The translations under genes were made by a program, and so were the position numbers. The notes beneath the pieces are model-generated. The model ran no database searches, was not told the origin of the DNA, and worked only from the letters and a program-made list of their open reading frames with translations. From Candidatus Rickettsiella isopodorum (lineage in GTDB: Bacteria; Pseudomonadota; Gammaproteobacteria; Diplorickettsiales; Diplorickettsiaceae), in the NCBI RefSeq assembly GCF_001881495.1, contig NZ_LUKY01000032.1, positions 248,001 through 312,000 on the forward strand: 64,000 bases of DNA, given 5' to 3'. Numbering within the stretch: the stretch's first letter is position 1; every line of letters begins with the position of its first letter. Positions 49,878-53,709 of the stretch are shown in pieces.

Positions 49878-51548
<1,671 letters not shown>

Positions 51549-52331
51549 TTAAGAGAGTTGAACCTCCGAAAATAAATGATTATTTAGCCAATTTGCTAAC
51601 AAATTAGCGACAAAACTAGCCGCTTGGGACTCGCTCATAAAGCCTTTATCATAAACTGCTTCACAAACATCTGCAAAACAAAAACCTTGTTGTAATAGAT
51701 ACAAAACTAATGCTTCCGCCTCAGTTAAAGCTATTGCGTAAGACTGTAATCCTTTACGCCAAACTACGCAATGATTCTTAATCATCCGTACTTCTGGTAC
51801 GGGTTTTTCTTGAACTAAGGCTTGCCATATCGCATAGCTATTATAATTAAAGCTAAAATATTGTACTGAAGGATGAAATTTAAAACATAAAGAGGGCCAG
51901 TTTTGTTCAGCAATATTTGCTAATACTTCAAAATTCAAACAAGGCGCATCAGCTGCTTCTAAACTCGTAATTAAGCCCTTAATTAATTGCGTTAATTCAC
52001 TCAAATAGAGTTGTTCAGAATAAGGTGCTTGTTCGGTTAGAAATTGTACTAATGGCTCACTAAACTTTGCTATCGAATAAAATTGCGATGGATAGGTATC
52101 AATAAAGACTTCTGCCAGCACGGTAAAGGCTTCATCGCCTAATAGCTTAGCTAACAACCCATACTCTTGATGTAAAGCATCAATTAAACGCCAATCATAG
52201 GCATTACGATAGACGGCTAAGCGTTCGTGTACCGTCCCTCTTACTGGCAACACTAGCTGGTTTAAAATTTGCTTATCTTCTCCCATTAAATGGGTTTGCA
52301 ATCTATGTTGCAAATTAGCTAATGCAGACAT
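51549..52331 (-). CDS. DUF2063 partner protein of a MNIO enzyme (BufC/HvfC-like)
   Basis: A 260-residue protein whose N-terminal half has the DUF2063 features [22 protein letters not shown] and [20 protein letters not shown]. The second half contains [20 protein letters not shown] and a winged-helix-like C terminus. Such proteins pair with DUF692 enzymes in bufferin-type RiPP clusters, where they are thought to present the precursor peptide to the enzyme. It overlaps the DUF692 gene by 17 bases and abuts pyrG with zero spacing. The family is often annotated as putative DNA-binding; here the partner role is far more likely. Confidence 0.87.
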
Positions 52332-53151
52332 TTTCCTTCCAAATATTTTTTGCTATCTTTTTAGCCTGTTGCAACTCAGCAAATAAAACTGGAAACTCAG
52401 GTATCTCGTCATCACGTTCTATCATGGTCGCAACTCTCCCAAATCGTTTTACTGCTTGCGCATAAAGAGACCAAACTCCATCGATAATAGGTGCATCATG
52501 TGTATCTATAATATAATCCCCACAATTTTTATGTCCTGCTAAGTGAAACTGTCGTACTCGATGGATAGGGATCGCGTTTAAATAGTGTAATGGATCAAAA
52601 TAATGATTTACAGAACTCACATAAATATTGTTAATATCAAGTAAGATTAAGCAGTCCGCTTGTTCAGCGATAGCCGTTAGAAATTCCCATTCCGTTACCT
52701 TGGAATCACGATATTCGATGTAACTTGAAACATTTTCTAACAAGATCTGGCGACCTAAAAAATCTTGTACTTGTTTAACGCGATCAACCACGTGTTTCAA
52801 AGCTTCTTCAGTATAAGGTAATGGCAATAAATCATGCGTATTTAAGCCATCAACTCCTGTCCAACATAAATGATCGGAAATCCAAACAGGTTGTATTTTA
52901 TCAGCCAACGCTTTTACTTTTTTTAAATATTCCCTATTCAGGGGATCACAACTTCCTATCGACAAAGAAACGCCGTGCATCACCAACGGATAGTGCTCGC
53001 GTATACGATTAAGATAATGTAGTGGTTTACCACCGGGCACTAAATAATCTTCAGTAATTGCTTCAAACCAATCTATTTCAGGCCGATGTTCTAAAATGTA
53101 AGAATAATGTTGGGTTCGCAAACCAAGACCAAAACCTAGAAAAGCATCCAT
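52315..53151 (-). CDS. DUF692 multinuclear non-haem iron peptide-modifying enzyme (MNIO, BufB-like)
   Basis: A 278-residue TIM-barrel metalloenzyme. Likely iron ligands and active-site residues are visible: His59 ([10 protein letters not shown]), Asp93-His94 (ISDHLCW), Glu139 (ILLENVSSY) and Asp172 ([11 protein letters not shown]). Others are His183, His203/His207 (FHLAGHK), Asp216/His218 (DTHDAP) and Glu245 ([10 protein letters not shown]). MNIO enzymes oxidatively modify Cys in precursor peptides, for example to oxazolone/thioamide in methanobactin or thiooxazole in bufferins. The Cys-rich peptide gene immediately upstream is the obvious substrate. It overlaps the DUF2063 gene. Chemistry on this particular peptide is unknown. 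Confidence 0.92.
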
Positions 53152-53189
53152 TGTCAGGAACTAACCTATAAAAAAATCTTTTAATAAGA

Positions 53190-53218
53190 AAAGCCGCGTA
53201 TCAATACGCGGCTTTATT
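53190..53218 (-). terminator. Intrinsic terminator between peptide gene and enzyme genes
   Basis: Perfect 8-bp GC-rich stem GCCGCGTA/TACGCGGC (53193-53212) with a 4-base loop, flanked by A and T runs. On the minus strand the stem is followed by TTTTCTTATT. It lies between the Cys-rich peptide gene and the DUF692 gene. It should give more message for the peptide than for the enzymes, with partial read-through. The symmetry means it could also act on the plus strand. Confidence 0.85.
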
Positions 53219-53269
53219 GTACATAGTCACATGGCTAATGAACAGCCATAAATCACTGAAAACTAATTA

Positions 53270-53539
53270 TTATCCATTCATTTGACTGGTTGTATTTTCA
53301 GCGGTTCTGCAATGACGACGGTGGTGATGTCTTTTTGGAGGACACGTTCTACATCTATTCATTTGCTTGCATCGGCTCATACATTTACATGTATTACATG
53401 GAGGCACGCAAGGTGTTGCACAAGGTGTTTCACAGATTGGTGTATTTTCTGGAATGTTGCGCGCACCTGTTGCACAACCAGATAAAAATATAGCAGCTGC
53501 AGCAGCAGCGATAACTAAACCTGACTTTTTCATGATCAT
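53270..53539 (-). CDS. Cys/His-rich precursor peptide with lipoprotein signal (putative MNIO substrate)
   Basis: An 89-residue peptide. A signal region (KKSGLVIAAAAAAIFLSGC) ends in a good lipobox LSGC (Cys22), with Ala following. The mature part carries ten more Cys: 36, 40, 44, 48, 51, 53, 57, 63, 66 and 77. The first four are spaced exactly every four residues (CETP-CATP-CVPP-C). A basic His cluster KRHHHRRHC follows. This resembles the design of bufferins (exported, Cys-rich, MNIO-modified, copper-sequestering) but does not look like the DUF2282 type. The start at 53539 fits AGGGG 9 nt upstream; 53533 is possible. Assignment as substrate rests on adjacency to the DUF692 and DUF2063 genes. 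Confidence 0.8.
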   Translation of the reverse strand: MIMKKSGLVIAAAAAAIFLSGCATGARNIPENTPICETPCATPCVPPCNTCKCMSRCKQMNRCRTCPPKRHHHRRHCRTAENTTSQMNG

Positions 53540-53582
53540 GATCACTATCCCCTGTAATAAAAATGGATAAGAAAAATTTTTC

Positions 53583-53634: not shown

Positions 53635-53709
53635 CTTAGTTTTTATACATAATTGTAAAAGAATGCAAGTATTTTTTAAATTTCATTAAATAAACGCACA
53701 AAAAATAAA

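Follow-up and report, generated by a model that had tools for sequence, protein, structure and literature searches.

Organization of the locus

The window (the whole stretch of 64,000 nucleotides that was analyzed) harbors on its minus strand a trio of genes encoding an 89-amino-acid peptide, an MNIO enzyme and a DUF2063 partner, which are arranged in the order precursor, MNIO, DUF2063 protein and pyrG (Table 1). The trio is confirmed as it had been given in a preliminary description of this DNA, and its reading as a bufferin-like locus was upheld by matches to PF05114, MNIO_BufB and DUF2063. The ATG of pyrG directly follows the stop codon of bufC (window positions 51548-51549), and bufBC and pyrG may share one transcript across the bacterial family. 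Neither a metal-responsive regulator nor a DoxX gene was seen at the locus among the neighbors scanned, and the locus contains no second precursor candidate. A single MNIO gene is present in the 1.49 Mb genome.

Table 1. Positions of the genes and sequence features of the bufABC locus in the window.
Feature	Position	Strand	Evidence or remark
pyrG (CTP synthase)	49878..51548	-	adjoins bufC; conserved neighbor, outside the system
bufC, DUF2063 plus RRE-fold partner (PME-type 1, predicted fold)	51549..52331	-	DUF2063 match; AlphaFold, Foldseek
bufB, MNIO (PF05114) of BufB type; Cys-Lys specificity indicated by D248, which follows the ERD motif	52315..53151	-	HMM matches, motif, tree
Hairpin resembling an intrinsic terminator (11-bp stem), between bufA and bufB	53190..53215	-	z -3.2
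bufA-like precursor gene, 89-aa Cys/His-rich prolipoprotein (predicted)	53270..53539	-	kept beside the MNIO in 15/16 family genomes; dN/dS ~0.18
Basic His-rich tail KRHHHRRHCR	53306..53335	-	similar tail, variable in sequence, in relatives
NTCKCMSRCKQ, conserved core containing the Cys-Lys sites C51-K52 and C57-K58	53363..53395	-	alignment of 13 diverse homologues
CxxxC array C36-C40-C44-C48	53396..53434	-	2-4 Cys among relatives
Signal peptide containing the lipobox LSGC (L19-C22, 53474-53485); Ala at +2	53474..53539	-	match to HMM of Buf2 signal peptides; lipobox Cys invariant
Conserved element GAAAAATTTTTCTTA in leader of precursor gene	53568..53582	-	conserved in family
Promoter-like sequence upstream of precursor gene	53652..53680	-	consensus match only; stretch conserved in congeners

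The precursor peptide, MIMKKSGLVIAAAAAAIFLSGC-ATGARNIPENTPICETPCATPCVPPCNTCKCMSRCKQMNRCRTCPPKRHHHRRHCRTAENTTSQMNG, is read from the ATG at position 53539. Alternative starts are the ATG at 53533 and the GTG at 53545; the latter aligns with the first ATG of congeners, and the next ATG codons in the window are those at 53539 and 53533. The peptide contains the lipobox LSGC (C22), ten further cysteine residues, the run CETP-CATP-CVPP-C and the cluster KRHHHRRH, so that every element of the earlier account of this peptide (its 89 residues, LSGC, ten further Cys and KRHHHRRH) was recovered. The regular CxxxC array emphasized there is present in the window peptide but is not conserved, as relatives harbor two to four of the cysteines. 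Unlike this array, the motif N[ST]CKCxSxCK is conserved among relatives. Across 13 diverse homologues the invariant cysteines are that of the lipobox and C57, and C51, K52 and K58 are nearly invariant. The precursor is under purifying selection (dN/dS about 0.18), which is strongest in the signal peptide (0.07). This value and the conservation beside the MNIO across the bacterial family led to rejection of a chance open reading frame. An identity as LptM-like small lipoprotein was also rejected, with a match (E 0.068) below the cutoff.

Each of the relatives checked has a comparable hairpin between the precursor and MNIO genes; in the distant ones its stem differs in sequence. The hairpin probably sets the level of the precursor above that of the enzyme. 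Conservation of the promoter-like stretch was assessed from alignment rows other than four minus-strand loci and by comparison with congeners. The leader element just upstream of the precursor gene holds a palindrome. A regulon behind this element was rejected, as its single other genomic copy falls inside a coding open reading frame. An Rfam search gave no match.

Predicted modification enzymes and descent from Buf2

The MNIO scored 377 bits against PF05114 and 390 bits against the NCBIfam model for bufferin maturases, MNIO_BufB (NF050167; cutoff 310), and thus belongs to the BufB type. The residues of its active site, among them the Asp in the ERD motif, are intact, in agreement with the intact metal-binding residues stated previously. 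MNIOs acting on Cys-Lys contain an Asp next to the catalytic Asp, whereas enzymes acting on Lys-Cys (EGKCG) harbor a Phe at this position (PMC13097082). The window MNIO reads LRT and ERDD, whereas LRR and ERDF were present in all seven EGKCG-clade enzymes examined. Together with the absence of EGKCG from the peptide, this led to rejection of a membership in the EGKCG/oxazolin group. The Asp at the specificity site is shared by nearly all Buf2 enzymes and agrees with the Cys-Lys sites of the peptide. However, the site is not strict, because Ala or Glu occurs in some enzymes located beside Cys-Lys precursors. C51 and C57, each followed by Lys, are the probable sites of 5-thiooxazole formation. 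In a quick tree of 109 MNIOs the clade of the window enzyme (SH-aLRT 98) is nested among enzymes with Buf2-type precursors; close to it are Legionella enzymes whose precursors carry CKGKNG repeats.

BufC exceeded the DUF2063 cutoff of 27.2 bits with a score of 59.7 bits. A sequence search of BufC against the PDB gave no match, and its relationship came from a fold search with the AlphaFold model (pLDDT 93.9), in which Foldseek gave matches to TglI (8hi7) and NGO1945 (3dee) and weaker ones to RRE proteins in complex with leader peptides (5v1u). Judged by this model, BufC is a PME-type 1 partner in which DUF2063 is fused to a domain of predicted RRE fold.

The window peptide showed no significant match to any family in Pfam and NCBIfam, including DUF2282 and BufA2 (NF050166), for which the membership threshold is 60 bits and canonical members reach 88-89 bits. 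The core with six conserved cysteines (CxGxNxCKG...) was not found in the peptide, where only its CKxxxxCK part is left. A DUF2282 bufferin (Buf1), against which the preliminary description had proposed a search, was rejected: the peptide did not match PF10048, for which a control precursor (L022) scored 58.8 bits. DUF2282 bufferins and, by prediction, the window peptide are exported Cys-containing MNIO substrates, but the window peptide has a different core and its enzyme comes from another branch.

Evidence for a relationship to Buf2 was found in the N-terminus. The peptide has a Buf2-type Sec signal peptide, encoded upstream of the MNIO and DUF2063 genes, which scored 29.8 bits against an HMM of Buf2 signal peptides; the best of 110 control N-termini reached 10.2 bits (L070 was set aside as a precursor). 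Such conservation would be explained by a role in recognition, since preliminary evidence indicates that the signal peptide forms part of the recognition sequence (PMC12452194). Intermediates are also available. Four precursors (L129, L011, L019 and L024) exceed all of 500 shuffles against an HMM of the Buf2 core, and L024, which is from the same bacterial family and contains CKGASSCKGHSGCK, matched the NCBIfam BufA2 model with 24.3 bits (E 2.7e-5). The mature part of the window peptide alone is weakly Buf2-like, with 7 of 500 shuffles reaching its score. Because of the nesting of the enzyme, the specificity site, the Cys-Lys core, the signal peptide and the intermediates, the window peptide has, by sequence comparison, descended from the Buf2 line and diverged so far that it is no longer recognized by tests for Buf2 membership.

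With Buf2/BufA2 (Buf_6/12Cys; the 'Cys-Lys' captophorins) the system thus shares the gene order, the BufB enzyme with its Asp, the signal peptide and the Cys-Lys sites, and a lipobox also occurs in some Buf2 precursors. It differs from them by the lack of the 6-Cys core, the CxGxNxCKG motif and an NF050166 match, and by the presence of the CxxxC array and a basic His-rich tail. The precursors with CKGKNG repeats in Legionella (e.g. L061 and L066) resemble the window peptide in their related MNIO, similar signal peptide and CKxxxxCK hexads, but they contain many near-perfect repeats and neither a lipobox nor a His-rich tail.

Distribution, lipobox and His-rich tail

Both MNIO and peptide are present in 15 of the 16 genomes of the bacterial family (Rickettsiella type), including that of the window; the remaining genome is 64% complete. 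The trio is thus kept in relatives, a point the preliminary description had left to be checked. The nearest named loci belong to Rickettsiella, Candidatus Aquirickettsiella and Coxiellaceae records, with MNIO identities of 78-93%. All family loci with enough sequence show the order wecA-like gene, bufA, bufB, bufC and pyrG, which also occurs at L070, a precursor locus of a genome outside this family (G106, family f92).

In a class-wide profile search, 28 of the 369 genomes proved to contain a member, and for about 24 of these 28 matches an MNIO is encoded within the same short stretch. The matches include canonical 6-Cys Buf2 precursors with a lipobox. A non-canonical group, lacking the 6-Cys core but harboring a basic His-rich tail, comprises the window family, L024, L011/L129, L060, L070/L136, L078, L141/L142 and L144 and spans about seven gammaproteobacterial families. 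The tail was located in 21 of 28 non-canonical precursors, all 21 with a lipobox, but in none of 64 canonical ones, a contrast between related sequences in which the statistics ignore kinship and the search was enriched for this type. Among the canonical precursors 18 of 64 have a lipobox. On the tree at least four changes are required for the tail and nine for the lipobox, with few independent pairs.

The adjacency to the MNIO also bears on the question whether the peptide is a substrate. It could be an unmodified, metallothionein-like lipoprotein that is merely located beside bufBC, with the true substrate encoded elsewhere; standalone bufferin-type precursor genes exist (PMC12452194), and the 6-Cys core is missing from the window peptide. 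This is very improbable, as the locus offers no other precursor candidate, the genome encodes a single MNIO, the adjacency is maintained throughout the family and in most class-wide matches, selection strongly constrains the Buf2-like signal peptide and the BufB specificity residue fits the Cys-Lys sites of the peptide.

The lipobox reported earlier was substantiated by the motif, the conserved cysteine and the presence of lspA and lolA genes. Its G-C pair is invariant across the 13 diverse homologues, although the other cysteines come and go. The residue following the lipobox cysteine governs sorting to the outer membrane in E. coli (the +2 rule). In the 13 aligned members this residue is Ala, Leu or Ser but never Asp, which by this rule points to the outer membrane as the predicted destination of the lipidated peptide. 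Alternatively, the lipobox could be unused and the peptide could be cleaved by signal peptidase I or be soluble in the periplasm like ordinary Buf2. Most Buf2 precursors lack a lipobox, and the call made here is based on motif and conservation, but such a fate is hard to reconcile with the invariant G-C pair, the presence of LspA and LolA, and the acylation of related MNIO lipoproteins in E. coli (PMC12636315), and is considered highly unlikely.

Lipidation does not, as the earlier account had supposed, make the peptide new. A lipoprotein signal peptide has been predicted for about 16% of Buf2 bufferins (PMC12452194), and the MNIO-modified lipoproteins DybA and NedA have been produced and their acylation shown (PMC12636315). 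With these DAG-RiPPs the window peptide has in common an MNIO precursor origin, a lipobox identified by motif and conservation, and an N-terminal cysteine expected to be acylated. They differ in that NedA is an oxazolin of the EGKCG group and DybA is a macrocycle of ChrH type, whereas the window system belongs to the Cys-Lys branch and has a His-rich tail. Published are therefore lipidated bufferins, as predictions, and MNIO-modified lipoproteins, from experiments. The subtype that combines a lipobox, a degenerate Cys-Lys core and a basic His tail, and that spans about seven families of Gammaproteobacteria, looks unreported: no description of a His-tailed, core-reduced subtype was found in the main texts of the accessible papers. 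Table S2 of PMC12452194 lists hundreds of unclassified small Cys precursors.

Proposed function

Based on the gene order, conservation, enzyme and partner families, specificity residue, Cys-Lys core and lipobox, we infer that the locus is likely to make a lipid-anchored, Buf2-derived bufferin (captophorin), which would be modified by BufBC, anchored in the outer membrane and used to buffer copper or a similar soft metal. BufC would hold the precursor through its RRE domain by the conserved signal-peptide leader, and in the cytoplasm BufB would turn the cysteines preceding Lys, namely C57 and probably C51, into 5-thiooxazoles by oxidation. After export through Sec, the modified peptide would receive a lipid at C22 and be cleaved by LspA; given the lack of Asp at +2, Lol would then deliver it to the outer membrane. 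There, the thiooxazole thiols, the remaining cysteines and the His-rich tail could bind and buffer the excess metal. The terminator between bufA and bufBC would keep the precursor in excess of the enzyme.

The thiooxazole chemistry and the copper role are suggested by analogy with characterized relatives (PMC13097082, PMC12452194) and with a Legionella operon. Copper binding is documented for characterized 5-thiooxazole peptides (PMC13097082), and in Legionella pneumophila an operon resembling the GIG operon of Cupriavidus responds to copper and gold (PMC5413113). A copper-type P1B ATPase is encoded in the genome. Both the peptides and the operon argue against a different task of the modified and lipidated peptide in the intracellular niche, such as handling of Zn, Ni or Au, a role in oxidative stress, or binding of LPS or peptidoglycan via the basic tail. 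Such a task is rather unlikely, although the His/Lys/Arg tail is absent from all 64 canonical Buf2 precursors, function is known in other branches only and MerC-bufferin fusions have been reported in mercury loci (PMC12452194).

The copper-buffering system proposed here is not a wholly new kind but a divergent lipid-anchored bufferin offshoot that is conserved across the bacterial family. Three features are truly unusual: the 6-Cys Buf2 core is lost, Cys-Lys sites are what is left of it, and a His/Lys/Arg tail is present. There is an even chance that these features define a distinct gammaproteobacterial subclass of lipid-anchored captophorins, in which a single Cys-Lys thiooxazole site or a few of them are left of the 6-Cys Buf2 core, the basic His-rich tail serves as a second module binding metal or the membrane or cell wall, and the peptide is the sole MNIO product in genome-reduced intracellular bacteria. 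The locus would place a surface-anchored, post-translationally modified metal chelator in obligate intracellular bacteria of arthropods. As these bacteria otherwise lose genes, its presence suggests that it serves against metal stress within the host cell.

The homologues with a 6-Cys core, CKG repeats, two Cys-Lys sites and one Cys-Lys site represent a natural deletion series, which would reveal the minimum of thiooxazoles for a working bufferin and the contribution of the His-rich tail. In the extreme form, L070/L136, a single core cysteine, in NSCKK, is followed by KKHHHHH, and the gene occupies the same chromosomal position between the wecA-like gene and pyrG. The leanest member, L070 (L070:3474-3770, plus strand), is a possible one-site substrate for the study of Cys-Lys MNIOs. 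Another precursor, L078 (L078:3545-3871, plus strand), has no Cys-Lys but Cys-Ser instead, and its MNIO reads ERDG, not ERDD, a single case of possible co-variation between enzyme and substrate.
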